Position numbers and translations under genes: made by a program. DNA of 64,000 nt from Symbiodinium sp. CCMP2592 (taxonomy: Eukaryota; Sar; Dinophyceae; Suessiales; Symbiodiniaceae), in NCBI GenBank assembly GCA_905221615.1, contig CAJNDT010005833.1, positions 440,001 to 504,000 of the forward strand, in the 5' to 3' direction. The notes under the pieces were generated by a model. That model did no database searches. It had not been told where the DNA came from and saw only the letters and a program-made list of their open reading frames with translations. Positions 1,908 through 24,290 of the stretch are shown piece after piece. Numbering within the stretch: position 1 is the first letter of the stretch; every line of letters begins with the position of its first letter.

Positions 1908-4900
1908 ATGGTCGCCCAAAGTACAGAGCGTTCAAGCTCCGCAACACGGCCGGCTAGCTCGCAAGAAGTGGCAAGTTCGTCAGGACTTCCGAACGGTGTG
2001 ACTGCAAGTGAAAGGCCTCAGAGGTCGAGAAGCTCAGCCGAGTTCTTGAGGACGGAAAATCCCAACCTACATGACCCGGCCCCTCCTCTGGAACCTTCGG
2101 CAGATGTGACTTCAGCGACTCCACCTCCAAGGGAACCTCCTTTGCAAGTGGAGCCTAACTATGATGAACCGCACCGGGGCGCGAACGTTATAACGAACAG
2201 TGCTGGAAGGACTGAAGTTAACCTGCCTACGAGAGGACAGAGCGAGCCGCCTACTACCCCGATGAGCTCAGCGGTGAGAGTCCAGGAGTACTACACGGCG
2301 CAATCGAGAGCTACGACAGGTGAACAACATGGTGTTAGGTGGATGGCACGGTTTACGGAGTTTCTTCGGACAGCAGCAGACCGTGGTGCAAGTGGCGTAG
2401 ACCGAGTTCTGGATGGGCTGGGAATTCCCCAGTATCACTCAGACCCTACGAATGTGAGAAGACTCGGTCCTATGTCGCAAACTACGGCTACGCAAGCTGC
2501 TATGGTAGTGTACTCACCTCCCGAAGAACTTCCTCCGCCTCCTCCACCAAGTAGACCGATACAGCCGTTACCAAGGTCATGGGAAGTTCCGCAACCGGCA
2601 GAACCTCCTCTTTTTGGCCCAGCTCAACTGGAACGAATGCGACAAGCTCAGAGTGACTACCCTCATATCTACGGACAAGCTTCAGAAGGCGGTAGTGAAC
2701 ACTCGTCGCGGCTACAAGCTGAAGTACAACGTCAGTTGGATGAGTACAATGCTAAGCACCGAGAGGAGATGAGAAAGATGGCTTTGGAAGTGGAGCACTT
2801 GAAAAACGAGCGATTGCAATGGGAGATGACAGCGCGAAGCCTGCTTGAATCACACGCACAGCCTCAAGGTGATCCACGGCAACAGCTTCCAGGTGATCCA
2901 CGGCAACAGCTTCCAGGTGATCCACGGCAACAGCTTCCAGGTGATCCACGTCAACAGCTTCCAGGTGATCCACGGCAACAGCTTCCAGGTGATCCTTCTC
3001 AACAGCTTCCAGGTGATCCACGGCAACAGCTTCCAGGTGATCCACGTCAACAGCTTCCAGGTGATCCGCGTCAACAGCTTCCAGGTGATCCTTCTCAACA
3101 GCTTCCAGGTGATCCTTCTCAACAGCTTCCAGGTGATCCGCGTACACAGCTTCCAGGTGATCCGCGTACACAGCTTCCAGGTGATCCGCGTCAACAGCTT
3201 CCAGGTGATCCTTCTCAACAGCTTCCAGGTGATCATAATGTCCAGTCCCGTGGTGATTCTGGGACAGGATTCCCGAGTCATACGCAGCTTCCGAAGGCAG
3301 CAAGTGAGTCCGTAAGAAATGGTTTTGAGACACAGTCCGCTGAGTTCACGAATGTTCAACATGAGCGATCTGGCTACGGTGGAGTAGGTGCTTCTCAGAC
3401 CACTTCTGGTGCTGATGACGGGAGAGGACCAGACTCTGCGAAGCAGCCGACGGCACAGCAATGGCTTGGAGGAGATCAAAAAACAGACCCAATGGCACTG
3501 CTGGCAGGAGGAATGGCTCAGTTGCAAGCGGTCATGCTTCAGCAGCTTTCGAGTGATAAAGACCGTTCAGGTGAGAGAAGCCCTGAGACGGTGAAGCCTG
3601 GTGTTTCAGCACTTCCTCTACTTCCTCAAGTGTCGTCCTCTACGGCATCAGTGGACATTATGGACTGGCTAGAACTGATTGCTGCTCCAATGTCTGACCT
3701 GAGTGACGGCTCGGGTGAATGGTGGTCCTTGGTAAAAAGGGAAGCCTCTAAGGCGTACCAGCTTTGGACGGATGCGAGCCCCATCGAGAAGTTGAGGATC
3801 ATGCCACCACATGTTGCAGAACTGGAGACGGGTCGATGGAGTAGAGTTAACTCGAGGGCCTCTTCAATGCTACTTCTTGCGCTTCATGATACAGTTCGCC
3901 AAGAAATGGTTTCGAGACGATCTACAGGTTCGGCGACAGCGTTGTTATTCCGGCTCCTGACGATCTACCAACCAGGAGGACAGCAGGAGAAAGTCACCAT
4001 ACTTCAAAGTCTTCAACAACCTGGTGAAGAAAGGGATCCTCACCAGGCAGTAGTGGCGCTGAGGGCATGGGCAAGGTGGCTTCGTCGCTGCCGAGACCTT
4101 GGAGTTTCGGCTCCAGATCCTAGCCTTCTGGCTAGGGGCTTGACCAACATGACTCGGTCAGTGCTCGAGCGGGATCAAGAAGTAAGCTTTCGTACAAGTT
4201 TGGTGAGAAGCAACTTGCTCGTGGATACGAAGCCCTCCTATGACTCAGTGGACCAGTACTACCACCACCTTTTGGCAGAATGCGAAGCCATGGCGGTGAA
4301 CTCTCAGACTCCGGGCTCTACGAGCACAAGCACTCCAAACAAGCCGGATCCGAAGATCAAGCCAATGAAGCCGGAGCCAAAAGGAGGGCCACCACAGCCA
4401 CCACCTGCACCTCCTTCGACGTCAAGGACTACTACAGGCGGTCAGGGTGGTGAAGAAGAAGTGGACAAAAGGGGCCAGGTTCCTTGTCGCTACTTCGGGA
4501 AGTCCTTCAAGGGTTGCGCCCGTGGAACTAAGTGCCCATTCAAACACTCTTGGGAAGGCAATGAGAAAGAGAAGGCTGTGCGTTGCCACCTTTGTGGAGG
4601 CAAGCATATGGCTAAGGAGTGCCCGACAAAGAAGCCGAGCACGCCCTCCTCTACCTCTTCTGCGACACCGGCGGGTACACCCAAGGCAGCTCCGAGCAAG
4701 GCACCGCCTCCAACAACAACCCCACCGTCGACCTCAACGAAGACCGTCCGAATTGATGAACGGGCCCAGGTTCAAGAAGCTCCTTCGTCCTCTACATCAA
4801 CCACTCACGAGACGGTCCCGGACCTAAAGGAAGTCTTGGCAGACGTTGGAAAAATGCTGAAGGTGATGACAGCGTCCTCTTTGCGAAAGTTCACCGTGAA

Positions 4901-7900
4901 GGATATGGAAAGTACCCATGGTGCTAGCATAAGGAGCCTCACAGCTGCTGAGGAAGGCAACGGTCCTGAACCCGCGGGCTCAACAATGGCTACCGGTTCG
5001 GGAACTACACGGAGTTCTCAGTCTGAGGAGTCTGAGGTGGAGGAACAAAGTGAAGGCGAAGATGAAGGACCCCGAGGACTTTTGGACAGTGGCGCAAGCC
5101 ATGCCCTTAAGCAGGCAACCCAGGAGGAGTACGATAAGGGAGTCCCAGTGAAAGTTACGCTTGCGGGCGAAGATACCAGAGTCCTACGTCAGAATGTTTG
5201 CGGCACTGTTCTGGTCACCAACGACGGCAACGAACGCATCCAACCAATTGTGCCAATGGGAGCGCTGATTGAGGACCTTGGTTGCAGCCTGCAATGGAAT
5301 CGAGGAAGGCTAAAGCTCAGGCATCCGACGAAGGGCTTCATCAAAATCTACCTCAACAACAACTGTCCTGAAGTGAATTTCAAGGAAGCCCACAAACTCA
5401 TAACAGAGTTGGAGAAGAAACACTTGGCCCAGCTCAGCTCGCAGGTGAACTCTTTGACTGCGAGACTTGAAGTGCTTCGAAAAGAAGAGAAGAGGACGTG
5501 GGATGAGTTGATGAAGGATTATGTGAAGACTGGATGCCAGGCCACTATTTTGCGAGCCCTTCTTCTATGTCCTGTGACAAAGGATCTCCCAAGTGAGGTG
5601 CATGCAATGCTTGCCGAAGGCTTTGATCCGGACGGCGGTGAACGATACCTAAAGGACCTCCCATTGTCAAAGAGGAGGAGGCGTGCGTTGATGAGGTCGA
5701 GTTCGTGGGTTATTCACCTTCATGCTGGAGACGGTGATGGAGAAAAAGGGCCTTTCAATGTGATCTCCAGAGGTGGAAAGATGGTTCTTGAGATTGACGC
5801 AAAGGCTTCAAAGCAATGGGACTTGCACCGCAAAGAAGGAGCTTATCGAATGTTGCTATGGGCAGCGGCACAAGGGAAGATCACAGATGTAATTGGTACG
5901 CCCCCACACACTACGTGGCCCACATCAATGGCGCCGACCCGAGGACCTGGATCCTATCCGATGAGGACTACAACGTCACCCTATGGACAACAACCTCTCC
6001 AACCTCTACAGCAACATCGAGTTGATCAAGAAACTGCTAGCATTGCCAAACAGCTGGTTGTGTGGATGATTGCTTCAGCGAAAGGACGCGGGGAAGTTGG
6101 GTTCTTCATGGACATGTCCCAGGATCCTGAGAAGTTGAGGGCGGACCAACCGGTGCAAGCATCCTTTTGGTCAACTGAGATGTGGAAATCCTTCAAGTCT
6201 GTCAGCGGAATGAAAAGGATCGACTTCTACATGGGAGCCTACGGACACAAGGCAAAGAAGCCAACTACCGCAGCTACGAACTACCCGGGGATGCTCCATA
6301 TGAACAACAACTGGGACTTTTCAAGTATATGTGTGCCGTCATCACTCTTGAAGTACGATGAAATGATCAAATGGTCAAGGGAGTTCAAGGAAATCCTCGC
6401 GCAGAACATCCTGGGCTGCTACGATGAGGCTGCCATGTCTGAGGAGGAGATCAAGGATGAGGAAGCCAGCCTTAAAAAACTAACCCGAGAACAACGACGG
6501 GAATGGAGGGACCACATCCACAACGATCACCAACCTTATCGACCTGATTGCTCGGTATGTGTTAATGCACAGGCCACTGGTTACCAGCACAAGCGGAGGA
6601 AGTTTCCAGGGATGTATGCGGTGGCAATGGACCTGGCTGGACCTTTCAAAAAGAAAGGACGTGACATGGACTTCGATGACTACAAGTACATTATGGTTGC
6701 TGCTTATCGCTGCCCTCGTCAGTACTTGAGTTCCATGGCTTTGACAGAGCTTGAGCGTGAGCTATATGTTCCTTCTGAAGACGAGGAAGTCCCTGAAGGT
6801 GAAGATCCTTTGGTGTTGGGGGAAGATGATGAGAAGGACCTGGAGGCCGAGGAGTCGTCAACCGAGGAGGCCGAAAAATTGGAAAGTGAGGTCGAAGAGC
6901 TCACTAAGAAAGTGGATTACGCCACGATCTATGTGACGCGCTGTTTGAGGAGGAGAACTGGACCTGCGGTACTACAAGCGGCTAAAGAAATCCTTCTACA
7001 GCTACGACAAACCGGTCTGCATGTTGCTCATATGCACACGGACAGAGCAAGGGAGTTCAAGACCAAGATGTTCAAAGCTTGGGTCAATGAAGAGAAGCTC
7101 AGGCATACGAAAACAGCTGGAGGCGACCCGGCAGGGAACAGCACGGCGGAGCTGGGAGTGAAGTGGGCGAAAGCTCGTGTGCGAAGCCTACTCAGAAGTG
7201 CAAGTGCACCACCAGAAGATTGGCCGATGGCAATGGATCACGCAGCAAGTAGCCTGTGGTCGAAGGCTTTCCCGTCGAGCTCATGGACAAACCCTCCAGC
7301 AGTTGCTTTTGGTACTGAGGTGTGGTTTCGGGCAAAGGCCTATAAAGGAAAGAAAGAGAAAGAGTATGACCCCGACGGCGTTCGATGGAAAAAGGGGCTC
7401 TATCGTGGCCCATCAAGGGAAGTAAGCCGGGGCCACCTCATTCAACGTGAAGACGGAGGACTCGTTGTTGCAAAGGGAGTGAAGTTCAATTTGGTGGAAC
7501 CAGAAAGAGACCTACAGGACCTTCTTCCACATGCTACCGTACAAGGAGAAGTTGAAGGCCTACGTGGTGATGATTTACCTCCCTCCAAAAGGCAGCTTCG
7601 AGAAGAGATTGAGTTTGTCTCTAGGAAGGCGATGTCAGAGAACAACTACACCAAGGAGCAGGTTGTCGAGATCTACAACCTACTTGAGGAGCTCGGTGAT
7701 GTTGACTTTCGGGCGTCAAAGAAAACTTCAATGACTACATGGTTCACTGGGGCATTCGTCCATGGTGGCAAAGCAGGCGTTCGTTCCAACTTAAAGGAGT
7801 ACCCTATGACAACAAAGTTCCTGACGACCTTCGCAAAGAAGTTCAGTGGAGATAAGACATTCAGCGCTTTGGGAATTACGCGCAACACAACCCTGGGAAT

Positions 7901-9671
7901 CCATCGCGACTCTCACAATTCGAGGGAGACATTGAATATGGTGTTGCCGTTGACTGAGTTTGCGGGAGGCAACCTGTGGATTCAAGACGGTGATGCTGAT
8001 CCTTCAGAAGCCATTGAGAAGGTCCTACCGAATGGGAAACAGGTGCTGGGTCGTGTGCTAACCCTGGAAAAGGATAAGCTTGTAGAGTTCACTCCCAGTC
8101 AATGGCATGAAGTTCAACCATGGGATGGAGATCGGGTTGTGATGTTGCTATATACCCCAAGAACTTCCAAACTCCAAGACGAGCACTATGAAGAGCTGCA
8201 AAAGGCCGGGTTTACGATTGACAAGGCCAGCTCAAGCGCTCGTGATCCCATAGAAGATGAAGAGGATGGTGAGGCAATGATTAAGCGCTTCGAGGTTACT
8301 GAAGTCTTTGAGATGATCCAGGCCTTCATTGAAGTCGATGAGTTGGACTTTCTTGACTTTAACTCGAAGACCCGTGGGGCTACCTTACCGCGAACAACCT
8401 TAAAGAAAACTGAGGTACAGTGCACCCCCAACATCGAAGAGATCCTACACGACTTGGACCTCAAGGGCAAGCCTTTGGAAGTTACCCATACTATAAGTCT
8501 GGGTGAAGTGAAGAAGAATATCTCCAAATGGTATGATTCTGCAGTAAAGGAGTTCACGAACCTCAGGGACAAGAAGAAGGCCTTCAAAGTCACCAAGCGG
8601 TGGAATCTTCCAGAAGGATGCAAGATAGTCCCTTGCAAAGGGGTGTTTACTGTCAAGCCAGATGCCTCACCGAACAACTACAAGAGGAAAACTAGATTTG
8701 TGGCTTGCGGAAACCATGTTCCTGAAGGAAGTATGATGCCGGAAGGTTTCGATCTGTTTGCTGCAGGGCTGGATTCCACTTCGTTGCGGACAATGTTTGC
8801 GTTTACAGCAGGATCCAACTGGCTCACCGGTACGACTGACATAAGACAAGCTTTTGTGTTGGCTCCTTGGTTGGGGGCTTCGGTCGCACTGCAGCCACCA
8901 AATATAGCCTTCGAGTTAGGCCTTGCAGAACCGGGAGACATGTGGGAAGTCCTGATGTCAATTTACGGCCTCAGAGAGGCCCCGGCACTTTGGTCTGGAT
9001 TTCGAGATCAGGAGCTACGGGCTGCACAGTGGGAGGTAACGATCGATGGAAAACTCAAGTGCCTCAGACTTCAGCAGTTAGTGTCAGACAATCAAGTATG
9101 GAAGGTTGTTGACACGAACGACCCGGACAAGGCTCTTGGGTATGTGATGGTCTACATCGACGACCTTTTGATTACGGGACCCTCAGAGATCCTCCACTCC
9201 TTCTTTGGATGGGTTTCGGCAAGATGGGAGTGTGATGAGCTGAACATCCTGACGGAGGAGAATCCCATCCGGTTTTTGGGCTTGGAGGTTCATAAGGTTC
9301 CAGGAGGAGTTGAAGTTGCGCAACATGGCTTCATCACCGAGTTACTCAGAGCGTACAATCACAAAGGGTCGAGGTCGTGGTCACAAGGTTCAAGAGATTT
9401 GATGGTGTTGACACCGGAAGAAGAAGAGGCAATCCTCAATGCAGAGCCTGTGAGTCTAGAGGGACGTGAAGCAGAAGTTAAACAGGCCCAGAAGCGAGTT
9501 GGGGAACTTCTCTGGCTCACCGGACGCTCGCGCCCCGATCTACAATATATTACTTCAATAATGTCCTCGAGGATTACCAGAGCTCCAGAAATCGTGAATG
9601 AGTTGGGAAAACCGTTTGCTCGACTACTTGTACGAGACACAGTACTACCGTTTGAAGTTCGTAAAGCTTGA
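1908..9671 (+). CDS. Copia Gag-PR-INT-2OG-RT polyprotein (2587 aa)
   Basis: This frame encodes the replication machinery of element 1. Residues 1-310 are Pro/Ser-rich. Residues 326-442 hold a QLPGDPRQ repeat. A CCCH finger begins at C860 and a CX2CX3HX4C knuckle at C893 (one residue shorter than the usual knuckle). The protease motif is LLDSGASH with D1060. The integrase has an HHCC-type region (from H1536) and catalytic D1575, D1712 and E1748; D1712 to E1748 is exactly D-x35-E. A Glu-rich insertion separates the first two aspartates. Residues about 1940-2110 are a 2OG-Fe(II) dioxygenase-like domain (H1999, D2001, H2067, R2076). RT follows, with D2311 and YIDD at 2416-2419. The start is the ATG at 1908, five bases after the LTR. 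Productive reading leaves this frame near 9609-9614; the last 20 residues or so are out-of-frame tail. Confidence 0.95.
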   Translation: MVAQSTERSSSATRPASSQEVASSSGLPNGVTASERPQRSRSSAEFLRTENPNLHDPAPPLEPSADVTSATPPPREPPLQVEPNYDEPHRGANVITNSAGRTEVNLPTRGQSEPPTTPMSSAVRVQEYYTAQSRATTGEQHGVRWMARFTEFLRTAADRGASGVDRVLDGLGIPQYHSDPTNVRRLGPMSQTTATQAAMVVYSPPEELPPPPPPSRPIQPLPRSWEVPQPAEPPLFGPAQLERMRQAQSDYPHIYGQASEGGSEHSSRLQAEVQRQLDEYNAKHREEMRKMALEVEHLKNERLQWEMTARSLLESHAQPQGDPRQQLPGDPRQQLPGDPRQQLPGDPRQQLPGDPRQQLPGDPSQQLPGDPRQQLPGDPRQQLPGDPRQQLPGDPSQQLPGDPSQQLPGDPRTQLPGDPRTQLPGDPRQQLPGDPSQQLPGDHNVQSRGDSGTGFPSHTQLPKAASESVRNGFETQSAEFTNVQHERSGYGGVGASQTTSGADDGRGPDSAKQPTAQQWLGGDQKTDPMALLAGGMAQLQAVMLQQLSSDKDRSGERSPETVKPGVSALPLLPQVSSSTASVDIMDWLELIAAPMSDLSDGSGEWWSLVKREASKAYQLWTDASPIEKLRIMPPHVAELETGRWSRVNSRASSMLLLALHDTVRQEMVSRRSTGSATALLFRLLTIYQPGGQQEKVTILQSLQQPGEERDPHQAVVALRAWARWLRRCRDLGVSAPDPSLLARGLTNMTRSVLERDQEVSFRTSLVRSNLLVDTKPSYDSVDQYYHHLLAECEAMAVNSQTPGSTSTSTPNKPDPKIKPMKPEPKGGPPQPPPAPPSTSRTTTGGQGGEEEVDKRGQVPCRYFGKSFKGCARGTKCPFKHSWEGNEKEKAVRCHLCGGKHMAKECPTKKPSTPSSTSSATPAGTPKAAPSKAPPPTTTPPSTSTKTVRIDERAQVQEAPSSSTSTTHETVPDLKEVLADVGKMLKVMTASSLRKFTVKDMESTHGASIRSLTAAEEGNGPEPAGSTMATGSGTTRSSQSEESEVEEQSEGEDEGPRGLLDSGASHALKQATQEEYDKGVPVKVTLAGEDTRVLRQNVCGTVLVTNDGNERIQPIVPMGALIEDLGCSLQWNRGRLKLRHPTKGFIKIYLNNNCPEVNFKEAHKLITELEKKHLAQLSSQVNSLTARLEVLRKEEKRTWDELMKDYVKTGCQATILRALLLCPVTKDLPSEVHAMLAEGFDPDGGERYLKDLPLSKRRRRALMRSSSWVIHLHAGDGDGEKGPFNVISRGGKMVLEIDAKASKQWDLHRKEGAYRMLLWAAAQGKITDVIGTPPHTTWPTSMAPTRGPGSYPMRTTTSPYGQQPLQPLQQHRVDQETASIAKQLVVWMIASAKGRGEVGFFMDMSQDPEKLRADQPVQASFWSTEMWKSFKSVSGMKRIDFYMGAYGHKAKKPTTAATNYPGMLHMNNNWDFSSICVPSSLLKYDEMIKWSREFKEILAQNILGCYDEAAMSEEEIKDEEASLKKLTREQRREWRDHIHNDHQPYRPDCSVCVNAQATGYQHKRRKFPGMYAVAMDLAGPFKKKGRDMDFDDYKYIMVAAYRCPRQYLSSMALTELERELYVPSEDEEVPEGEDPLVLGEDDEKDLEAEESSTEEAEKLESEVEELTKKVDYATIYVTRCLRRRTGPAVLQAAKEILLQLRQTGLHVAHMHTDRAREFKTKMFKAWVNEEKLRHTKTAGGDPAGNSTAELGVKWAKARVRSLLRSASAPPEDWPMAMDHAASSLWSKAFPSSSWTNPPAVAFGTEVWFRAKAYKGKKEKEYDPDGVRWKKGLYRGPSREVSRGHLIQREDGGLVVAKGVKFNLVEPERDLQDLLPHATVQGEVEGLRGDDLPPSKRQLREEIEFVSRKAMSENNYTKEQVVEIYNLLEELGDVDFRASKKTSMTTWFTGAFVHGGKAGVRSNLKEYPMTTKFLTTFAKKFSGDKTFSALGITRNTTLGIHRDSHNSRETLNMVLPLTEFAGGNLWIQDGDADPSEAIEKVLPNGKQVLGRVLTLEKDKLVEFTPSQWHEVQPWDGDRVVMLLYTPRTSKLQDEHYEELQKAGFTIDKASSSARDPIEDEEDGEAMIKRFEVTEVFEMIQAFIEVDELDFLDFNSKTRGATLPRTTLKKTEVQCTPNIEEILHDLDLKGKPLEVTHTISLGEVKKNISKWYDSAVKEFTNLRDKKKAFKVTKRWNLPEGCKIVPCKGVFTVKPDASPNNYKRKTRFVACGNHVPEGSMMPEGFDLFAAGLDSTSLRTMFAFTAGSNWLTGTTDIRQAFVLAPWLGASVALQPPNIAFELGLAEPGDMWEVLMSIYGLREAPALWSGFRDQELRAAQWEVTIDGKLKCLRLQQLVSDNQVWKVVDTNDPDKALGYVMVYIDDLLITGPSEILHSFFGWVSARWECDELNILTEENPIRFLGLEVHKVPGGVEVAQHGFITELLRAYNHKGSRSWSQGSRDLMVLTPEEEEAILNAEPVSLEGREAEVKQAQKRVGELLWLTGRSRPDLQYITSIMSSRITRAPEIVNELGKPFARLLVRDTVLPFEVRKA
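2883..3234 (+). repeat. Coding minisatellite, 15 x 24 bp
   Basis: Fifteen head-to-tail 24-bp units with consensus CAGCTTCCAGGTGATCCACG plus CAA encode QLPGDPRQ, with variants PSQ and PRT. A degenerate unit precedes the first. The period keeps the frame, so copy-number changes are tolerated in the Gag-like region. The repeat also keeps two antisense frames open; those ORFs are shadows. Confidence 0.95.
7725..8240 (+). other. 2OG-Fe(II) dioxygenase-like domain in copia polyprotein 1
   Basis: This domain lies between integrase and RT. It shows a GAFVHGG strand, then HRDSHN with the H-x-D metal pair, GGNLWI, and FTPSQWHEVQPW...DR with the distal histidine and a 2OG-binding arginine nine residues later, followed by a YTPR strand. 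The same ordered pattern occurs in the second element of this window. Metal and 2OG binding are inferred from these residues; the substrate is unknown. Confidence 0.75.
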
Positions 9672-10857
9672 TGATAGCGAACAGAGGTTGGATATTTTCA
9701 CCGATTCATCGTTTGCCACTTCATCGGGACGGTCACACGGATGTGCTGTAGTTTTCTGGGGAGCCTCACCTATTGCCTGGCGATCATCAAGGCAGCAGCT
9801 CATCACTCTTAGCACGGCAGAGAGTGAAATGATTGAGGCTGTGGAAGGAACAACGCTGGGTTTGGCTACAAAGTGTCTACTACAAGAGCTCTTGGGTAAG
9901 GAGTTGCCGATGTACCTCAGGATCGACAACCAAGCTGCTATTTCGCTGATAAGCGGAAGTTCTGCAAGCTGGAGAACTAGGCACTTGAGGCTACGATCAA
10001 ACTGGGTCAGAGAGAGAGTGACAGCAAGAGAACTATTTCTTCTACATGAGCCAGGAGAAACCCAACGAGCAGATATTGGGACAAAGGCACTTCCAAAGGA
10101 CAGGTTGAAGAAGTTGGTTGAATTGTGGGGTGTAGTTGACAGACGTCCTCCTCGTGATCCTTCGATAAGGAGGGCTTCTACCGAAGGTGCTGGACAACAG
10201 GGATGGCTATCGAAGTTGATCATGTTCTGTCAAATTTGTGGAACGGTAGCAGCTTCAGAAAGCTCCATTGAAGCTGGAATTCCCTGGGATCTCTACTTGG
10301 TTGTTGCAGTCCTTGCGATCGCAGTCATTGGCTTGTGGGAAGGTTTCAAGTTTTGCTGGAAACGTAAAGAGACTCAACTTCGTGCTCTACGAACAAAAGC
10401 GAACAAGGCCTCTCCACAGAAGCTTAACAAGACCGAGCTCAAAGAGCTGCAGAGGATTTTAGCTCTTGATCCAGAAGATCTTACAAGAGATCAACGAGTC
10501 AGACTTGTTGACCTGAGGACAAGGTTTGAAGCTACTATGCCTCCGAATACCTCACCGGTGCCAACGCTTCCTCCTGATGTACTAGCGTCTTCATCCTCTA
10601 CTGGTCGTAACAAACAACCAGCTACGAGGGACCAAGGCGTTCAAGCAACACCGGCTTTCCAGAGGGTTGAACCAGATCCAGTACCTCCTGTTCGGGTAGA
10701 GATGTACGCGGGCCCATTTTTCCAAGTGCCTGGCAGAGATACGCTCCACCTATATCAAGGATGTTGGGGTTTGCGGAACACTGGAAGAGCACATACTGTA
10801 CAGCTTTGTCGCTGTTGTACAGAAAACGCAGGACGCAGTCTATACAACCGGGGATGA
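9598..10857 (+). CDS. Copia RNase H plus C-terminal membrane/His-Cys domain (419 aa)
   Basis: This frame continues the polyprotein after RT. RNase H motifs are complete: DSSFA (D36), STAESE (E75), RIDNQAA (D110), TRHLRLR and ADIGTKAL (D159). After the usual end of a copia polyprotein there is about 200 aa of extra sequence. It has a hydrophobic segment at residues 230-254 (WDLYLVVAVLAIAVIGLW...), a basic linker (KFCWKRKETQLRALRTKANK), a Pro/Ser-rich stretch and a final H384...C389...C404-x-C-C motif. The ATG at 9598 overlaps the first frame by 74 bp, but homology shows that sense continues from the first frame at GK followed by RLLDYL here, so translation probably enters by frameshift rather than at this ATG. 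Stop at 10855-10857, 72 bp before the right LTR. Confidence 0.9.
   Translation: MSWENRLLDYLYETQYYRLKFVKLDDSEQRLDIFTDSSFATSSGRSHGCAVVFWGASPIAWRSSRQQLITLSTAESEMIEAVEGTTLGLATKCLLQELLGKELPMYLRIDNQAAISLISGSSASWRTRHLRLRSNWVRERVTARELFLLHEPGETQRADIGTKALPKDRLKKLVELWGVVDRRPPRDPSIRRASTEGAGQQGWLSKLIMFCQICGTVAASESSIEAGIPWDLYLVVAVLAIAVIGLWEGFKFCWKRKETQLRALRTKANKASPQKLNKTELKELQRILALDPEDLTRDQRVRLVDLRTRFEATMPPNTSPVPTLPPDVLASSSSTGRNKQPATRDQGVQATPAFQRVEPDPVPPVRVEMYAGPFFQVPGRDTLHLYQGCWGLRNTGRAHTVQLCRCCTENAGRSLYNRG
9609..9614 (+). other. +1 frame change between RT and RNase H frames (AAA-CCG)
   Basis: The RT frame reads ...GGA AAA CCG TTT..., while the RNase H frame reads CGT TTG CTC GAC. Sk­ipping one C after AAA gives G-K-R-L-L-D-Y-L, the expected continuation. 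It is either a programmed +1 shift or a one-base insertion in this copy. Confidence 0.6.
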
Positions 10858-10928: not shown

Positions 10929-11213
10929 TGCTGATATCTGGCATTCCCGTGGAACTGATGTAACATCATGTGTGTGTTTGATTGAGTCGCTTATGGCTCT
11001 TGCACAGGACAGTAGGCAATCGCCAAATAGCTGCACTTTGTCAAGTATGCAACGTTCAATGTATAGGCAGCTGGTGGAAGCCATAGTCACATGTGCTTGA
11101 ACTGAAAAAGAGTTTAGCTCGCGAACGTGGCTTAATGGTTGGCGCCTCGACGGCATAAGCCCTGCATTCTAACAGCCTCGTGGAGCTTCAATTCGAGATC
11201 TACGTGATTTATA
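10929..11213 (+). repeat. 3' LTR of the copia element
   Basis: 285 bp, identical to the 5' LTR at 1619-1903. It is followed by the duplicated target CTTTC. Confidence 0.95.
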
Positions 11214-11218
11214 CTTTC
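11214..11218 (+). repeat. Right target-site duplication CTTTC
   Basis: Matches 1614-1618. On the minus strand it is GAAAG, within codons 5-6 of the interrupted gene. Confidence 0.9.
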
Positions 11219-14836: not shown

Positions 14837-16264
14837 CTACTCTGCATGGAGCTCGCTTCGAAGAGCACGGGCTTGCCCATAGGTGAGGCTACCGTCCTGG
14901 ATCTTCTTGAGATACTCCTGCCCCAAGTCTTTGTAGTTTGCAAAGTTCCTCTGACGGATCTCCAACAACAACTCCCGTTTGTGCTTGCCGGATTTGCAGC
15001 GACAGCCCGTGATGTAGACCCTTGGGTTCGTCATGGTCGTAGTAATGCGAACCTGGTGGAGAGGATCGTCGTCTGCAGCTGGTACAACAGCAGGATCATC
15101 ACCTGGAGCTGCGGGTGCAGCAGGAGCTGTAGGGACAGGATCACTTGCAGGATCATTCGGAAGTGCAGCCGCTTCGTGGGTCTTGGCCTTCGGTTTCGCC
15201 TTGGACTTAACCGCCGTCTGCTTCGCCTTCGCCTTGGCCTTGGCCTTGGCCTTCTTGGGCTTTTTCTTCGGTGCCAAACAAGAAGCTGGCTTCTTCATTG
15301 CCGCCGCACTGGCCAGAGCATTATGATGCTCAATCACCGTCTTTGGAACAGCACCCTCGGGCAGGTCAGTGGAAATCTCACTGCCATCAGCAAGGATCGT
15401 CCGGCTCTTGCAGGCATGCTGATCCGTGTACGTGAAAATGGGCTGCTTCAAGGGCTGATCTAGACGAGCTTCATGGCTGGCCTGCGTAAGCGAAGTTCCA
15501 GGATTGGAAGGCTTCGATGCCTCGCCAGAAGACAACTTCATCCTCTTGGCCTTGGACGATGGTCCGGCAGTGCTCGAGTGAGACTTAGCTTTCGAGCCGG
15601 TCTTTGCATCTGCAGGAGAATGATCATCCTCCTCGACTGCAAAAGCCTCATCACCACTGCTCGAGATCACATCGATCGCCGTCGCATGCCCGATCGGCGC
15701 CCGGGGGACCGAAAGCCCATACCTAGCATAGATGTCCGACGAGGAGGATGTGCTCCTCCTAGGCCGCCGTTCTCCATCAGGCTCTGATTCTCCAGCAGGC
15801 TCTACGGGCAGAGGCGGCTTGGAATCGGAGTTGCCCTTTGTCAATGTTCTCCTGCCCCTCCACAACTTCGGCTTGGGAGGTGCAATCCCCATCTTGGCTT
15901 GTTCCTCTCGGGCTTCTCTTCTGCTTAGGGCTTCAACAATGCGAAGTACAGCAGGATCCGTCCTTTTGCCGCTGGAGATGCTCTTCCTCTTCAAGCGAGC
16001 AAACTGCACAACATTCGCGATCTGGCGGCCAAAATGGTCGGCCTCAGCTTGCTCAAGTCCTTCAAAGGCCAAGCAAGCAGCTTTGGAGATCACAGTCTTG
16101 ACCGGTCGCGAGGAGACGTTGAGGTAATCCAAGATGAAGGCCTCGTAAGCACAGGCTACCTTTGCAGGATGCGACTCTGTATACTGGCTGCCCAATTTCT
16201 TGTAGTTCGCATTCAACATCTTCTTCACTTGCTCCACAGTCGCTGTGTTAGCTGCACGGGTCAT
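14837..16264 (-). CDS. Hypothetical Lys/Ala-rich protein (475 aa)
   Basis: A single open frame from ATG at 16264 to TAG at 14837-14839. Residues 1-110 are a folded-looking helical region (VKKMLNANYKKLGSQYTE, AYEAFILDYLNVSSRP). Residues 120-330 are Ser/Pro/acidic and low-complexity. A (KA)n run such as KKAKAKAKAKAK follows, then an Asp/Pro linker. The last ~65 residues are conserved-looking: RVYITGCRCKSGKHKREL followed by ANYKDLGQEYLKKIQDG and QARALRSEL. I associate that C-terminal module with a large dinoflagellate protein family of unknown function. The (KA)n part recalls histone-like or nucleolar tails. No intron is needed. No catalytic residues are seen. Confidence 0.7.
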   Translation of the reverse strand: MTRAANTATVEQVKKMLNANYKKLGSQYTESHPAKVACAYEAFILDYLNVSSRPVKTVISKAACLAFEGLEQAEADHFGRQIANVVQFARLKRKSISSGKRTDPAVLRIVEALSRREAREEQAKMGIAPPKPKLWRGRRTLTKGNSDSKPPLPVEPAGESEPDGERRPRRSTSSSSDIYARYGLSVPRAPIGHATAIDVISSSGDEAFAVEEDDHSPADAKTGSKAKSHSSTAGPSSKAKRMKLSSGEASKPSNPGTSLTQASHEARLDQPLKQPIFTYTDQHACKSRTILADGSEISTDLPEGAVPKTVIEHHNALASAAAMKKPASCLAPKKKPKKAKAKAKAKAKQTAVKSKAKPKAKTHEAAALPNDPASDPVPTAPAAPAAPGDDPAVVPAADDDPLHQVRITTTMTNPRVYITGCRCKSGKHKRELLLEIRQRNFANYKDLGQEYLKKIQDGSLTYGQARALRSELHAE

Positions 16265-16506
16265 GATCGATGGGGATCCGGCCAGGAAGCATGAATCGCG
16301 AATCTCGATCGACGTCCCAAATCGAGGGATCGAGCCAAAATGATGATCAAGGATCGAGAGTCAAATGCACGTGCAGGCAGCCGATGCATGATCATGCCAT
16401 GATCGCCATGCAGGAGAGATTGCATGGAACCCCTCCTATAGGTCGCGATCGCACGTCGACAGGAGAGCATTATATCGAACCCCTCCTGGATCGAAGCCGA
16501 CCGCGA

Positions 16507-17211
<705 letters not shown>

Positions 17212-17216
<5 letters not shown>

Positions 17217-17418
17217 CATGTATATATATACATAATTTGTATATACATATTATACATATACATATACATGCCACATACATATATATATATATATATAATG
17301 CATGCCACGACATGCATGCAAACCATACAAGAAAAAGCACTTTAAATAAGGCATGTGAAAACACTGAATTTAAGGATTGTTAAAATAGGGTATGTAAACG
17401 CTAAACAAAGCGTATTGA
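17212..17418. other. AT-rich spacer before element 2
   Basis: TATA-rich to about 17300, then roughly 120 bp with no motif recognised except TTTAAGGGGGAAAG just after it, which resembles a polypurine tract. No LTR was found here. Confidence 0.5.
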
Positions 17419-17445
17419 TTTAAGGGGGAAAGCCAAAATGGACTT

Positions 17446-17973
17446 TTGGGTTTACTGGGCCAGGAGGAAGCCTTGACAGCAGGACCGACTACTCAGGAGG
17501 CTGTCCTGACGGGACACTGCGTGATTGACGGCGGGGCCACGAGAACTCTGGGCTCCGTGAAGGCGCTTGAGCGGGTGTTCCAGAAGAACATGGAAAAGTA
17601 CGGCGAGGATAGAGTGCAACATGTGGATCTCGAGGACCGTCCGGTGTTTGGCTTCGGCAACTCAACGGAAGGCCGCTGTGTCTCAACGCTGCATCTTGGC
17701 ATCCAGGCCTCCGGCAAGAATGGCCAGATCGTGGTGCACGCCCTCGACGAGGGCGAGGGCCCGGTGCTGTTCTCGATTGACGCGCTCCGGAAGTTGGATG
17801 CTCTGATTGACTTTAGGCGAGACTTAGCAGTGTTTAGAGCACTCGACCCTTGTAAAGTGATTCAGTTGCAGCGGTCGCAAACCGGCCATCAGCTCTTGGA
17901 TTTGACAGCAGATTTCTATGCAAATGCGAAGGGAACGACAAGGCCTGTTCCCCCTCTCGATGAGTTTCTGTAG
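17446..17973 (+). CDS. Retropepsin-like protease domain of element 2
   Basis: The frame is open from 17419; no upstream ATG is in frame and 17446 is TTG, so the true start is lost or lies upstream. The catalytic motif is HCVIDGGATRTLGS (Asp-Gly-Gly-Ala instead of Asp-Ser/Thr-Gly). The second half, PVLFSIDALRKLDALIDF, matches the flap-distal part of retropepsin folds in copia relatives. About 175 codons end at TAG 17971-17973. The next 6 kb in the same frame are open, so this single stop separates protease from pol. Confidence 0.7.
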   Translation: MGLLGQEEALTAGPTTQEAVLTGHCVIDGGATRTLGSVKALERVFQKNMEKYGEDRVQHVDLEDRPVFGFGNSTEGRCVSTLHLGIQASGKNGQIVVHALDEGEGPVLFSIDALRKLDALIDFRRDLAVFRALDPCKVIQLQRSQTGHQLLDLTADFYANAKGTTRPVPPLDEFL

Positions 17974-18073
17974 GGACAGCTCCTCCCGGATGACGTTCCT
18001 GGCGTCAAAAGGGAGGTCCGCATGTACAGTCCAGGAAGTGTTAGTGCAACATGTCAGAGTCCTCATTTGAGAG

Positions 18074-19081
18074 ATGGTGATGATAGTGTTAATGAAGCTC
18101 ACATTTCTGATTGCAGAGGCACAGCTCAACAACCAGACGTTGCGGACAGCCTGTGTAGGAGCTCAAATCCACAGCCCCAGGCACCTGTCCTTCAGCGTCC
18201 CCTACCTGAGAGCCATGATGCGGATGAACAAGACCCAGCTGCAGGAGGCCATCAGGGCTCGAGGCGAAGAACCACCCCGGGAGTGGAGCAACGTCGAGCT
18301 TCGCGATCGCCTGAGCGAACTCATGGAGCTCAACGGAGAAAGTGTCGGAGGATCTCGCCGAACCGACCTACGCCAGTGGATGGCCGAGCTCAACAAGGCG
18401 AGCCGCAAGAAGGAGACTCTCAAGACCTTCTGCATGGAGAGGCTCAAGATCAACGTGACGGGCTCAGAGACCATCCCGGTTCTCCAGAAGTACGCGACCA
18501 AGAAGATTTACGAGGTGTCAGTGGCGAACGCCCTGGACGCAGTGGGTTTTGGCAAGCATTCGACCCTCACCTACGGACAGCTTCGGAGGGAACAGCCGGG
18601 CTACTGCACATGGGTTCAGGAGACGCTTCTGGAGAATGGCAAGTCCACCGACTACCGGCTCCAGCGGCTGGGTACGTGGCTGATGAATCAGCCAGACGAG
18701 GAAACCGAAGAGATCTCGATCAAGGACCTGCCGATGCACCAGTCCCCCGTGATCCATGGCACTCCGGCGAAGGCGAAGGCCAAAGCACCCTCCGGCGGGA
18801 AAGGCTACGGGGCGCCAAAGTTCGATTTGGCAGCTCGTGCCAGTGCCTCCAAGGAGATCCCGGGCACCTCCAGTGCGGCCGAGAGTCCCATGGGAGCCAG
18901 CTCGGACCAGCTCAAGATCTTGATGGACACCATGGTCGCGATGAAGGAGGAGATCAAGCAGTTGCGCGAGAACCAAAGCCCGGAGGAACCGCGACGCAAG
19001 AAGAAGGAGGAGAGCGAGACGGCCAAGGACTCCGAGACGGGCAGCAATGTGGCCAGTTACACAATGGTCCTGGATCCGTAG
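18074..19081 (+). CDS. SAP-like and ExoX-C-like module of element 2 (335 aa)
   Basis: ATG at 18074, stop at 19079-19081. Residues about 50-85 (MNKTQLQEAIRARGEE...NVELRDRLSEL) look like a SAP DNA-binding helix-extended-helix. Residues about 157-185 (GFGKHSTLTYGQLRRE, YCTWVQETL) resemble the short module found at the C-terminus of exonuclease-X-like proteins. A Lys/Ala/Ser linker and a C-terminal coiled coil (DQLKILMDTMVAMKEEIKQL) follow. The frame is one base off that of protease and pol, so it either needs a -1 shift near its end or reflects an old indel. The parallel plus-1-frame reading of 18022-19050 is Arg/Gly/Gln-rich nonsense and is a shadow. Confidence 0.65.
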   Translation: MVMIVLMKLTFLIAEAQLNNQTLRTACVGAQIHSPRHLSFSVPYLRAMMRMNKTQLQEAIRARGEEPPREWSNVELRDRLSELMELNGESVGGSRRTDLRQWMAELNKASRKKETLKTFCMERLKINVTGSETIPVLQKYATKKIYEVSVANALDAVGFGKHSTLTYGQLRREQPGYCTWVQETLLENGKSTDYRLQRLGTWLMNQPDEETEEISIKDLPMHQSPVIHGTPAKAKAKAPSGGKGYGAPKFDLAARASASKEIPGTSSAAESPMGASSDQLKILMDTMVAMKEEIKQLRENQSPEEPRRKKKEESETAKDSETGSNVASYTMVLDP

Positions 19082-22000
19082 AGGAGCCAGGAGACGGGCA
19101 AGAAGAGAGTTTTGTGGCAGCAGTGAATGAAGATTCAGGTGAAGAGCCTGTACGGTGGCGTCAACTCACATCTGGTGCCGCTCAGGTTCTGGAAACCGAG
19201 TCTTGGAACACGGTGCCTAGGATGTTCTCGGATCTTGTTCGAAGCCAACGACCACAGTTGCTTGAAGTGACGTGTGAAAAAGAAGGAGTTCTTGCAGCAG
19301 CCGTGCGTAGGGCAACAGGTGACGAGAGTGCTGCAGTCAGTTGTGCCTTGTGGAACATGGACGATTTAGGCACCGCTGAAGGTCTTAGGCTTGTGTTGGA
19401 ACAAGTGGAAGCGTTACATCCCAGTGTTGTGTGGTTGTGTCCTCCTGGAACTCCCTACTCCCCCATGCAAAGAACAAACCAAAGAACGGAGGAACAGAAA
19501 CAGGAGTTGCAACAACAAAGACAAAAAGCCTTGCAAACTTATGTGAACTGCACGGTTGTCTGGCACTTCTGTGTCCAAAAGGGCATCCACGTGGCTTGGG
19601 AAATGAGTGACAAGAGTGATGCTTGGCGACTTCCCTTGATGCAGGATATGGTGCGTAGGTATGAACCCCGTTTTGCGGTGACGAAGGGATGTAGGGTGAA
19701 TCTGAGAAACGGGGAGGGGAAACTGATCCAAAAGGGTTGGAAGGTGATGACCACGCATGCGGGATTGGCCCAGGCCCTCAACAAGCCCTGTAGGTGTCAC
19801 CACAAGTACGAACATGGCAAATGTGAGGGTTCGACATGGAACACTGAGGCCCCGCACACCAAAGAATTCCAGAGGCTCGTGGTTCAAGGTACGCAACAAG
19901 AGTTGACCATGTATGAGTTGCAACAGGAAAGCGGTGGGAAAACCCAAACTCCTGACCTCTTTGGATGCGGTCTTGCTTGTGTGTGTGAAGTGACATGTCA
20001 GTCAAGCAATAAGCAGTTATGTGCATGTTGCTTGCTTGAGACAGAAGGGCGAGAGAATGGAGAGAACCATGGCATGGTCGCACAACACACGAACAGCCCA
20101 AGCACAGAGGAGCAGGCTCGCGAGCATTTAAGGAACCAGGAGTGGGCACCACAGGCCATGGAGAACTTCCTGAACAACCTGGACCTCAAACTGCCTAGGA
20201 AGGGAAGGACAATGATGAAGGGTGTTCAGGAGCGGCCACCATACCACCAATTCGGCGCATACACACATGGTCCGTTCTCCGGAGTGAGTGCCAGAACACG
20301 TCAACATGAAGCGTTGTGCAAGTACATTAATGCCTATCTCCGGCAACACGCCGACCCAGGAGCGACTTGGTCTTCGTTTGTGATAAGCGTTAATAACCCT
20401 GTTCCGTGGCACAAAGACAACCACAACTTGAAAGGCAGCCGAAATTATACTTGCGGTTTCGGCAACTACGAGGGGGGTGCTTTGAGGATCAAGGAACAGC
20501 ACGACGACAATCACACCGAGGTGGACACCAAACACAAAGTGATCGAGTTCTCTCCAGACGCCTGGCATAGTGTTGCGGCCTGGAAGGGCCAGCGGTTGAC
20601 CTTGTCTGCATACACGGTGCGTGGAGTGCATAGTTTGAGTCCTGAAGAGCGTGAGAGACTGAGAAAGTGTGGATTCCCGTTACCCCGTCATCAACAGATC
20701 ATGTGGAGCGAGGCGAACCAAGACCCTGAGGCCTTAGCTGTGGAAGGACCCCGAGGCCCCCAAGCTAAGAAGAAGGCACAAATCCAGAAACAGTTGTACT
20801 TGCTGCACGCTGCGACGGGCCACGGGAGCATGCGACACTTAGTTGACGCGCTTAAGAAGCGAGGAGCATCCGAAGAAGTGTTGCAGGCTGCGAAAGAGTT
20901 TAAGTGTAGCGTGTGTCATGAGAAACAACGAGTGCAGCCTCGGCATCTGGCGTCAATAGAGCCGCTTCCTCCGAAGTGGCACACCCTGTCAGCGGATGTC
21001 GGTCACTGGCATCACCCAACAACAGGAGAAGACGTGCAATTTCTTGTGATGATAGATGAGAACACGAGGTTCCGAACGGCACGTATTCTTACTAGGGGTT
21101 CCAAACAACAGCCCTCCGCCACACAGTGTCTGAACTACATGCAAGAAGGTTGGTTCCAGTACTTTGGTCTGCCCCGCACTTTGCGGGTAGACCCAGCAGG
21201 AGCTTTCAGAAGCCAAGCACTGGAGAGCTTTTGTGACAAGCATAGCATATTTCTTGATGTGGCTCCTGCCGAAGCGCATTGGAAGATTGGTTCCATTGAG
21301 CAAGCGGTTCAAGGGTTGAAGGAAGTTCTAGGTAGGGTGCATGAAGATGAACCGGAAATCACTCCTGAAGATGCCCTGGCCAGTGCTGTGCGTGTGTTTA
21401 ATCACCGGGAGCAGGTGAGAGGCTTTACTCCTGCCCAGCTTGCCATAGGCAGGAATGCAGATGACACCGATCGCTTTGTATCGGAAACTCACCAATTACC
21501 TCCCGACCTGTTGGTCGAGAACGCCTCGGGAGAGTTTCAGCGAGATGTCCAGAGGCGAGCTTCTGCCGAGAAGGCCCATGTTGAGTGGCACACCAGGCAG
21601 AGATTGCTGAGAGCGAAGCACTCTCGGCCACGGCGTGCATACGACTACGTGCCTGGAGAACTGGTGTTCTTTTGGCGAAGCCAAGAGTCAAACAAAAGCC
21701 GTCGAGCTCCAGGTGGCAAGCACGGTCGTTTTCTGGGCCCCGCCAGAGTCCTGGCTACGGAGACCAGAAGAGATGCTGAAGGTCACCTCCGACCGGGAAG
21801 TGCCATCTGGTGCATTCGAGGGAAACAGTTGATAAAATGCTGCCCGGAGCAGCTTCGCCGCGCATCTGAACGCGAGGCTCTGGTGGAGGAGTTGAGTACT
21901 GATGCCAAAATCCCCTGGACCTTTACCAAGGTGGCGGAGGAGCTGGGCGGCAATCAATTTCAAGATGTCTCACATGAAGCTCCCGATGAGACGGAATGGC

Positions 22001-24081
22001 ACCGTGCCCAAGATCCCGAGCAGGAGTCGCCCCCCCTGCTTCGGCGGATCCGGAGCAAACGACCGGAACCACCTCTACCTACCGACGAGATGGAGGAGGA
22101 TCAAGGCAATCCTGCACAGCGGCCAAGGCAGAGTGCCAACATGGTCGCCGGCTTCGCCGCGGAGAAGTGGCAGGACCGGATCACCGATCACACCTGGCGA
22201 GCGGAGCCCGTGGAATTCTGGAAGGATGAACAAATGGCCGTCGAGATCGAGGTGGAGGTCCCGGACACGAACCGAGGCCGGAAACAGATGATTCAGAATA
22301 TGGAGGGCTTCTTTGTGGGTGCCATGAAGCGCAAGGCGGTTGAGATCAGCGAGAAGCGCCTCAGTCCCGAGGAGAAGGCACAGTTTCAAGAAGCCAAGGC
22401 GGTAGAAGTCAAGAACTTTCTTGCTGCAGAGGCCTTCAAGAGTCTGCCGTCTCATCTACAGCCTTCGGCCAGCCAGGCCGTAGGCATGAGATGGATCCTT
22501 ACATGGAAAACAAAAGAAGACGGCAGCAAAAAGGCAAAGGCGAGGGCGGTGCTGTTGGGCTACCAGGACCCGGCCTACGAGCACCGCGCTACTACATCTC
22601 CGGTTATGTCGCGGCAGACGCGACAGATGTTCCTCCAGTATGCCGCTTGGAAACGATGGGTCATCCAGAAGGGCGACGTGTCGGGAGCCTTCTTACAAGG
22701 AAGGGAGTATCCGGACAAGCTGTTCTGCATCCCTTGCCCTGAAATCCTGGCTGCCATGAACCTTCCGCCAGGTACCGTGACGCAGCTCAAAAAGGCATGC
22801 TACGGGCTTGTGGACGCGCCTTTAGAATGGTACAAATCCGTGGACGAGTTCCTTACGAGCCTGGGCCTCGAGCGCTCCTGGTCCGACCCGTGCGTCTGGT
22901 ACTGGCGCAAGGATGGAAAGTTACGGGGCGCAATTTGTGGCCACGTCGACGACTTCCTCTTCATGGGATCCCCAGATGATAAAGGCTGGACGGAGATCCT
23001 CGCCCAGATCCAGAAGAAGTTCAAGTGGGGAGACTGGGAGAAGGACACCTTCACGCAATGTGGCGTTAAGATCGAGGCCACCTCTTCCGGCTACGATCTG
23101 TCCCAGCCAGGCTATGCCACCGAGGTAAAGGAAATCCCTTTGAGCGCTACACGACGGAAGCATGACGACAGTGTCATCACGGAGTGGGAGCGTACGCAAC
23201 TGCGCACGCTGCTTGGAGCGCTGTCCTGGACAGCACAACAGGTGGCGCCGCACCTGTCAGCGGAGGTTTCCTTGTTACTCTCCGAGACCAGTCAGGGGAC
23301 GGTGAAGACCATCAAGAAAGCCAACCAGCTACTCCATCAAGCTCAAGTTCGGCATGCTCACAAGATGAGGGTGCATCAATTCGATCCCAACACCGAGCTG
23401 GCCCTCTACGCGTGGGTCGATGCCGCAAGTCAGAATCGCCAGAAGGGCGGCAGTACGCAAGGGATCTTCATTGGGATTGCACCGGTGTCCTTGTCACGAG
23501 GAGAAGTCACGGAAGTGACTCCCATTTGCTGGCATTCCAGCAAGATTGACAGAGCATGCCGCTCCCCAGGAGCGGCAGAAGTGCAAGCAGCATGCAACGG
23601 TGAAGACACGCTGTTCTACGCGAGGTACCAGTGGTCCGAGATGCTCTACGGTAAGGTTGATGTCAAGGAGCCTGTGAACACTGTACGCCAGACCCCGGGT
23701 TTTCTGATCACCGATTCAAGGAACGTGTATGACAAGTTGAATACGGAAGTGTTGGTGATCAAAGGAGCAGAGAAGAGAGCGAATATCGAGCTGTTGAGTG
23801 TAAAAGCATCGCAACAGAGCACAGGCCTGGATATTCGTTGGGTACACTCTGAGGCTCAACTGGCAAACGGCCTCACCAAGGCCGGCACCTCCCGAGAGTT
23901 CGAGCTCTACTACAAGATGAATGGCAGATGGCGGATTGTGGAAGACCCCAACATGATGTCAGCGCGACGTCGTAAGTTGGCAGGGTTGTTGCCTCTGCAG
24001 AAGAAAGATGAGCCTATTTCTAGTGATAATGAGGACTCTGATGATGTTTGGGGATCGGGTGCCATGCAAGTGCCAACATAA
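19082..24081 (+). CDS. Pol region of element 2: MTase-like, 2OG-like, INT, RT, RNase H
   Basis: Residue numbers count from 18022, the first ATG of the open frame. A methyltransferase-like segment has LCPPGTPYS (472-480) and VAWEMSDKSDAW (E527). The 2OG-like domain (about 735-885) has WHKDNHN (H797, D799), EGGALRI and DAWHSVAAW...R (H849, R858). Integrase has H929, H934, C962, C965, D992, D1057 and E1093, with D1057 to E1093 again D-x35-E. RT has GDVSGAF (D1552) and HVDD at 1641-1644 in place of YVDD. RNase H has WVDAAS (D1800), PGAAE (E1853) and ITDSR (D1898). The frame is intact through 5 kb to TAA at 24079-24081, so the pol part decayed little even though the front end is broken. Stop is followed by about 200 bp of unique sequence. 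Confidence 0.9.
19390..19900 (+). other. DNA-methyltransferase-like domain of element 2, nucleophile apparently lost
   Basis: HPSVVWLCPPGTPYSPMQR resembles the PPC motif (IV) of C5-type methyltransferases, but the position expected to be Cys is Gly. A glutamate-containing VAWEMS strand follows about 50 residues later, like motif VI, and then DAWRLPLMQDM. I recall the same layout with Cys in other dinoflagellate retroelements; that is from memory, not a search. Confidence 0.45.
20224..20680 (+). other. 2OG-Fe(II) dioxygenase-like domain of element 2
   Basis: The ordered motifs match the domain of element 1: GAYTHGP...GV, WHKDNHN, YEGGALRI, K-V-I-EFSPDAWHSV, a W-x-G-x-R step with R exactly nine residues after the distal His, then YTVR and a GF near the end. 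The spacing H-x-D to distal His is 52 residues here and 68 in element 1. Confidence 0.75.
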
Positions 24082-24290
24082 AGTTTGGACTTGTGCTGCA
24101 GAACTCACGGAGTGCTCTCTGCAGCTGTGTGACCATCCAAGAGACGCTAGCCTGATTAGACCGGGGGAAATCGCTGCTGTGCCGCGATAAAAGAAGGTCT
24201 GTCATTGACAAGCGGATCTGCGAAGGTGCAAGTGACTTGAGCCCCTTTCGGCGACCACCAATCAATCCCGCTTGCAGGGTTTATAGGGTT
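24082..24290. other. 3' flank of element 2
   Basis: Unique sequence with GACCGGGGGAAAT near 24158-24170. No second copy of it exists upstream, so it cannot be shown to be UTR, LTR or host. Confidence 0.4.

Follow-up and report, generated by a model that had tools for sequence, protein, structure and literature searches.

The window analysed here is a 64,000-nt stretch of Symbiodinium sp. CCMP2592 (contig CAJNDT010005833.1, positions 440,001 to 504,000 of the forward strand). It contains a long terminal repeat (LTR) retrotransposon, element 1, whose Gag-Pol frame includes a predicted 2-oxoglutarate (2OG)/Fe(II) oxygenase domain resembling the TET and JBP enzymes. A second Pol frame in the window, element 2, carries another copy of the domain.

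Position and active site of the domain

The domain of element 1 and its principal residues, given in amino acids (aa) of the Gag-Pol frame, are as follows.

7683–8225, + strand: putative 2OG/Fe(II)-oxygenase, TET/JBP-like domain, aa 1926–2106; homologues, predicted fold, profiles, selection
7902–7910, + strand: H1999-R-D2001, predicted iron ligands; H and D in 100/100 distinct relatives
7917–7919, + strand: N2004 of the HRDxHN signature; N in 99/100, HRDxHN aligned with TET2
8106–8108, + strand: H2067, predicted third iron ligand; 100/100
8133–8135, + strand: R2076, predicted 2OG-binding arginine; 98/100, very weak alignment to the TET2 arginine in TRISLVFYQHK
8160–8162, + strand: R2085, second conserved arginine; 93/100

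An earlier sequence-only reading had picked out H1999, D2001, H2067 and R2076, and all four were found exactly where it placed them in frame 1908–9671. The domain also lies, as proposed, between the integrase region (aa 1600–1900, defined by conservation and motifs) and the reverse transcriptase (RVT_2, aa 2233–2484); its location held, while its bounds proved somewhat wider than first drawn.

In the aligned rows, the H, D, H triad was present in 49/49 and R2076 in 48/49. The wider set, made up of 100 distinct sequences with a minimum length of 110 aa and extending down to 26–28% identity with the window domain, kept the iron triad throughout and H2003 in 96. This count excluded L001, L047 and L050 as duplicates, together with seven rows shorter than 110 aa; among the short rows, P0061, P0067 and P0068 retain H and D without the distal part, and in P0070 the distal His is present but Ser replaces R2076. 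Two copia relatives, L037 and L038, show HKDYNN/HKDFNN in place of HRDxHN and Q/N at the R2085 position.

The pattern goes beyond chance: the protein search returned 47 of 589 candidates at E ≤ 0.01. Those listed with an organism were from Symbiodinium, and the nearest named homologues (93% identity) were from Symbiodinium sp. CCMP2592.

Fold, sequence profiles and selection

The AF2 model of the window domain, compared with PDB structures by VIA-align on the Foldseek top 1000, matched 2OG oxygenases and their double-stranded beta-helix fold, whose absence the sequence-only reading had named as grounds for abandoning its proposal. Matches included the Naegleria TET-like enzyme, ALKBH5 and FTO. 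Nucleic-acid enzymes formed the majority of the 50 rows, and ALKBH5 and AlkB took or shared the top place. Plant-virus replicases were among the BFVD matches. With this fold, the HxD...H triad and a distal basic residue, the domain is a predicted member of the 2OG/Fe(II) oxygenase superfamily.

Profile searches used three alignments: A1 (19 rows), A2 (nine element-2 members) and A4 (18 widely spaced members), with the window domains repeated among the 46 rows. Against Pfam, A1 gave Tet_JBP in 9/19 rows (best E 0.0021), Asp_Arg_Hydrox in 7/19 (best 6e-4) and 2OG-FeII_Oxy_3 in 3/19; A4 gave Tet_JBP in 3/18 (best 2.2e-7), 2OG-FeII_Oxy_3 in 4/18 (best 1.7e-6) and Asp_Arg_Hydrox in 2/18 (best 1.2e-4). 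The AlkB family (PF13532) was not matched at E ≤ 1 in any of the 46 rows, and no AlkB chain appeared in PDB profile searches with the oxygenase alignments. The A1 profile retrieved only TET2 from the PDB (E 0.29–0.30). P0001, the element-1 sequence, on its own retrieved only nucleoside hydrolases there (E 1.4–1.8) and had no NCBIfam match. PHROGs matches were not relied on: for A1 the best E was no lower than 0.04, and for element 2 they were scattered, the commonest being phrog_6059 (named queuine tRNA-ribosyltransferase; 6/9 members, best E 0.013).

The other ground for abandoning the proposal, a lack of alignment of the four residues to 2OG oxygenase profiles, did not come true either, and the earlier reading is supported. 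The HxD region fell on HRDLHN of TET2, and the distal His and Arg aligned in a second stretch scoring −0.5, too weak alone; the TET2 residues opposite all four are that enzyme's iron and 2OG ligands. An HRDxHN-type signature is typical of TET, and the sequence evidence leans toward TET/JBP.

Selection was assessed in 30 genome copies, among which six pairs had sufficient changes. The ratio of nonsynonymous to synonymous substitution rates (dN/dS) of the oxygenase was 0.06 (L001–L002), 0.07 (L001–L003), 0.08 (L020–L022), 0.07 (L020–L025), 0.15 (L022–L025) and 0.10 (L027–L030), against 0.02–0.15 for integrase and 0.04–0.12 for reverse transcriptase in the same pairs. Eight further close pairs with 2–7 changes each were set aside: five had no amino-acid change, L023–L026 gave 0.19, and L002–L003 and L010–L019 had three and two amino-acid changes, respectively, and no silent change. 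H1999, D2001, H2067, R2076 and R2085 were present in 30/30 copies, their codons varying only synonymously. The domain is under purifying selection, which bears out the earlier suggestion that it is maintained.

Carrier elements and their spread

The remaining features of element 1 are listed below.

1614–1618, no strand: target-site duplication CTTTC, left; direct sequence reading
1619–1903, + strand: 5' LTR, 285 nt, starts TG; identity to 10929–11213
1908–9671, + strand: Gag-Pol frame, 2587 aa; open reading frame, Pfam RVT_2 E 8.6e-15
3585–4415, + strand: Gag-like segment, aa 560–836; conserved in many copia relatives, named from position only
5658–6476, + strand: conserved segment upstream of integrase; methyltransferase-like by eye only (IGTPPHTTW, FMDMSQDP, KPTTAATN)
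6705–7607, + strand: integrase region, aa 1600–1900; conserved segment, named from motif reading and position
8604–9359, + strand: reverse transcriptase, aa 2233–2484; Pfam RVT_2
9598–10857, + strand: RNase-H-like 3' part in another frame; 79% identity to the P0007 C-terminus over nearly full length
10929–11213, + strand: 3' LTR; identical to the 5' LTR
11214–11218, no strand: target-site duplication CTTTC, right; direct sequence reading

Element 1 is a Ty1/copia retrotransposon, with an RVT_2-type reverse transcriptase, LTRs and a target-site duplication. Since the LTRs are identical over 285/285 nt and the 5-bp CTTTC repeat stands on both flanks, the insertion is recent, in agreement with the sequence-only reading. 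RVT_2 was the sole retroelement domain that Pfam recognised in the protein; rve had no match there and is present in the precomputed Pfam annotation of relatives such as P0008 and P0043–P0046. The order of protease/integrase before and RNase H after reverse transcriptase was read from conservation, position and motifs; the RNase-H-like part had no Pfam match and is labelled from its motifs. Despite the identical LTRs, a frame break (9598–9671) separates it from the reverse transcriptase, and because P0007 has both parts in a single frame, this copy of element 1 is not fully intact. The oxygenase domain sits upstream of the break. The N-terminal part of Gag contains an in-frame tandem array at 2786–3330 with a 24-nt unit (QLPGDPRQ), which appears in the repeat listing as 16 staggered 185-nt copies.

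Element 2 contributes two features.

18022–24081, + strand: Pol frame, 2019 aa; rve E 2.9e-5 (below its cut-off), RVT_2 E 4.6e-25
20227–20706, + strand: second putative oxygenase domain copy, upstream of integrase, with H797, D799, H849 and R858; BLASTP, profile–profile comparison, relatives

Here the domain lies on the opposite side of integrase relative to element 1. The two domains share 26% identity (BLASTP 3e-21, P0001 as the element-1 sequence), and their families match in profile–profile comparison at E 1.7e-47. Ten more proteins were assigned to the element-2 family, all keeping HxD and the distal H...R except P0061, which diverges before the distal His. No LTRs of element 2 were found within 15500–27000.

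A third carrier, L051 (contig C485), has its repeats in the order A-coding-B-A-B (B 297 nt, A at least 243 nt, 100% identical) and is a DIRS-type element. Its third frame (3911–7759, 1283 aa) encodes the oxygenase (aa 75–230), a segment whose DNA-methyltransferase-like motifs were picked out by eye, a reverse transcriptase (RVT_1 E 0.012, below its cut-off) and an RNase-H-like end recognised by eye; L053 is the region upstream of this frame. A candidate tyrosine recombinase frame showed Phage_int_SAM_1 at E 0.42 only and a recombinase-like motif seen by eye. Comparison with the copia domain showed the L051 oxygenase to be a homologue (102 bits), and the DIRS domain alone found TET2 first in the PDB (E 0.074). 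The domain is thus known from two retrotransposon orders. A genome-wide search with Pfam Tet_JBP, which takes intron-rich host genes exon by exon, gave four matches at E ≤ 0.001 (150/155 candidates scored). All four were very similar DIRS-type copies with the same domain and PPC/ENP motifs, so the Tet_JBP matches detected in the genome are all element-borne. In one of them, L048, the domain starts in a different frame.

Two segments, one preceding integrase in element 1 and one preceding the oxygenase in element 2, have motifs that prompted a methyltransferase reading, which is not claimed. The element-2 counterpart covers aa about 436–723 of the stop-to-stop frame and has PPx motifs; the element-1 segment reads PPH in the window copy and PPC in some copia relatives. 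Fuller motifs were seen by eye in the DIRS segment (APPCGTAS, ENPANS), which had no DNA methyltransferase (DNMT) match in Pfam or PDB. Across 12 rows, Pfam returned one unrelated match to these segments (E 0.18), and the PDB likewise one (E 1.1). Profile comparisons were not significant: E 0.55 between elements 1 and 2, 0.021 (2% probability) between element 1 and DIRS, and 0.058 (1%) between element 2 and DIRS.

The genome to which the window belongs (G000; 1.098 Gb, 5383 contigs) yielded 4882 first-look candidates, unconfirmed as copies. The best 150 were scored, every one at E ≤ 1.5e-22; an internal stop occurred in 4/150, in a sample that favours intact copies because only the best candidates were scored. 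Among 16 regions chosen from diverse copies, the order integrase–oxygenase–reverse transcriptase was found in 11 (L031–L033, L035, L037–L041, L044 and L046); L031 and L032 share one domain sequence, and L046 is split over several frames. The arrangement of element 2 (segment, oxygenase, integrase, reverse transcriptase) recurs in L043. In L036 and L045 the oxygenase is followed by reverse transcriptase with no integrase detected (Pfam RVT_2 in L036), and in L034 and L042 the domain lies in long frames (1975 and 2140 aa) in which no integrase, reverse transcriptase, other copia segment or Pfam family was detected. On G000 contigs C711, C1046, C5251, C1, C136, C2490 and C5252, copies with about 39% identity to the window domain and near-equal scores sit in open frames of about 4020 aa; they form a very long single-frame copia lineage that was perhaps recently active.

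Stand-alone relatives were sought among 2039 candidates, giving 10 proteins that look like fragments of the same elements. Neither viral nor prokaryotic contigs gave a confirmed relative (28 and 65 pattern stretches, respectively), which is weak evidence of absence since one short pattern was used for each. Mean pairwise identity among 33 full copia-type proteins was 55% for oxygenase, 58% for integrase and 65% for reverse transcriptase. Oxygenase identity correlated with reverse transcriptase identity (Spearman 0.86 for all 55 proteins, 0.46 for the copia set alone), as would follow from a domain moving together with its element.

Proposed activity and its alternatives

The computed results comprise the fold, an intact iron triad with its arginine, purifying selection, and a distribution that covers many lineages of copia and one of the DIRS type. 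We consider it probable (roughly 0.6) that the domain functions as a 2OG/Fe(II) oxygenase, oxidises nucleic acids in a TET/JBP-like manner and has been retained in Pol of these retrotransposons; its base-modifying role is an inference. It shares with TET2, Naegleria NgTet1 and JBP1/2 (PF12851) the 2OG fold and the HRDxHN...H...R pattern, and in the broad set the strongest sequence-profile matches were to these enzymes. It differs from them in being compact (about 180 aa), embedded in Pol and below the Pfam cut-off, with an activity that is predicted.

Several results weigh against this assignment. In the fold comparison, the Z-score of TET was tied with those of AlkB and small-molecule enzymes. 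The window domain alone matched only Asp_Arg_Hydrox in Pfam (E 0.004–0.018) and not Tet_JBP, which was also matched by 0/9 element-2 members. The curated PF12851 cut-off of 34.9 bits was never reached (best 29.6 bits), and for this reason the domain is called TET/JBP-like and is not filed as a member. The 18-row A4 profile ranked TET2 first among PDB sequences at an E of 0.013, which is suggestive only; the element-2 profile found no 2OG enzyme there (three unrelated matches, E 0.2–0.8), and 2OG-FeII_Oxy_3 was matched by one of six full-length element-2 proteins (E 0.0029). R2076 is absent from L031 and P0051. In distant, largely saturated pairs, the median ratio of nonsynonymous to synonymous differences (pN/pS) was slightly higher for oxygenase (0.41) than for integrase (0.36) and reverse transcriptase (0.34).

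The leading places of ALKBH5 and AlkB in the fold comparison and the plant-virus replicases among the BFVD matches would suit an AlkB-like repair enzyme that strips alkylation damage, or N6- or N1-methyladenine (m6A/m1A), from element RNA or cDNA, a role also proposed for the AlkB domains that some plant RNA viruses carry. We nevertheless find this unlikely, as the AlkB Pfam family was unmatched in all three alignments, HRDxHN aligns with TET2, and PDB profile searches brought up no AlkB chains. The AlkB family resembles the domain in fold and iron triad and is not known to carry HRDxHN. Hydroxylation of Asp, Asn or Pro in Gag, integrase or a host protein seems improbable: the window domain matched no Pfam family except Asp_Arg_Hydrox, which recurs in A1 and A4, but the best A4 match to that family is weaker than those to Tet_JBP and 2OG-FeII_Oxy_3, and the fold comparison is dominated by nucleic-acid enzymes.

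Loss of R2076 in two of 100 relatives is what might be seen if the domain were catalytically dead and served Pol only in structure or DNA binding. That the triad is invariant down to 26–28% identity, with only synonymous variation in the catalytic codons of the 30 genome copies, makes such a domain very improbable. Oxidation of 5-methylcytosine (5mC) or another base on RNA instead of DNA would fit a retroelement genome that passes through RNA, as well as the fold likeness to ALKBH5 and FTO, which are RNA enzymes; the methyltransferase-like motifs beside the DIRS-type oxygenase and a host rich in modified DNA speak against it without being decisive, and we hold it to be highly unlikely.

In the preferred reading of a TET/JBP-like oxygenase, the domain would be made within Gag-Pol and then released or kept beside integrase and reverse transcriptase, where a Pol-borne enzyme would have access to cDNA, integrase and target DNA. 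It would oxidise the 5-methyl group of a pyrimidine, turning thymine into 5-hydroxymethyluracil (5hmU) or 5mC into 5-hydroxymethylcytosine, in element cDNA or target DNA. This might leave the new copy marked or unmarked, as suits the element. Oxidation could mark new copies, or it could help an element evade silencing, an idea put forward for the TET+ transposons of fungi (PMC12730594). DNA is the most likely substrate given the methyltransferase-like motifs adjoining the DIRS-type oxygenase and the 5hmU-rich DNA of dinoflagellates. Thymine is supported indirectly: 5hmU replaces 12 to 68% of it in dinoflagellates where assayed and lies preferentially over most repeats in Breviolum (PMC11071213), and the Naegleria TET-like enzyme among the fold matches is reported to act on thymine as well (PMC12344493, citing Pais 2015). 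Widespread CG methylation in Symbiodinium and the DNMTs carried by retroelements there (PMC5890265) support 5mC.

Comparable captures have been described. Fungal TET+ elements (Kojima 2025, PMC12730594) likewise carry a TET/JBP-type gene in several lineages, thought to serve the transposon; they are DNA transposons, including Helitrons, whereas the present carriers are retrotransposons. SymbioDIRS-Dnmt3 and SymbioLINE-Dnmt (PMC5890265) are retroelements of Symbiodinium that have captured a DNA-modifying domain, which is under purifying selection there too, the former with a DIRS architecture like L051, but the domain is a DNMT instead of an oxygenase. The sequence-only reading had stated that retroelements of this group are reported to capture DNMTs, which was imprecise: de Mendoza et al. 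2018 (PMC5890265) describe DNMTs in LINE and DIRS elements of Symbiodinium and Copia as lacking any DNMT domain. A 2025 paper words it as Copia and DIRS with DNMTs in streptophytes and dinoflagellates (PMC12344493). In its main text, PMC5890265 has no occurrence of TET, JBP or dioxygenase, and that of PMC11071213 makes no mention of oxygenase, dioxygenase or JBP, with "thymidine hydroxylase" in one reference title only. The literature searched, which took in few subscription papers, did not describe dinoflagellate retrotransposons with an oxygenase domain, and novelty is therefore provisional. Retroelement-borne DNMTs in dinoflagellates were already known; the occurrence of a TET/JBP-like oxygenase within Pol of Ty1/copia and DIRS elements appears, on that provisional footing, to be new.

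These findings would extend the link between transposons and TET from fungal DNA transposons to retrotransposons, and the DIRS-type element places an oxygenase beside methyltransferase-like motifs. They also offer candidate enzymes for the old question of 5hmU, as every Tet_JBP match found in the genome lies in a retrotransposon, and the relatives of these matches are under selection and present in many copies. A bolder proposal, which we regard as doubtful, is that these oxygenases are the thymine hydroxylases behind the massive 5hmU of dinoflagellates, or their evolutionary source: each element would place 5hmU in its own cDNA or where it inserts, and the bias of host 5hmU toward repeats would be the product of very many such copies. 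The domain resembles enzymes that alter the letters of DNA, and it may be relevant to the unusual chemistry of dinoflagellate DNA.
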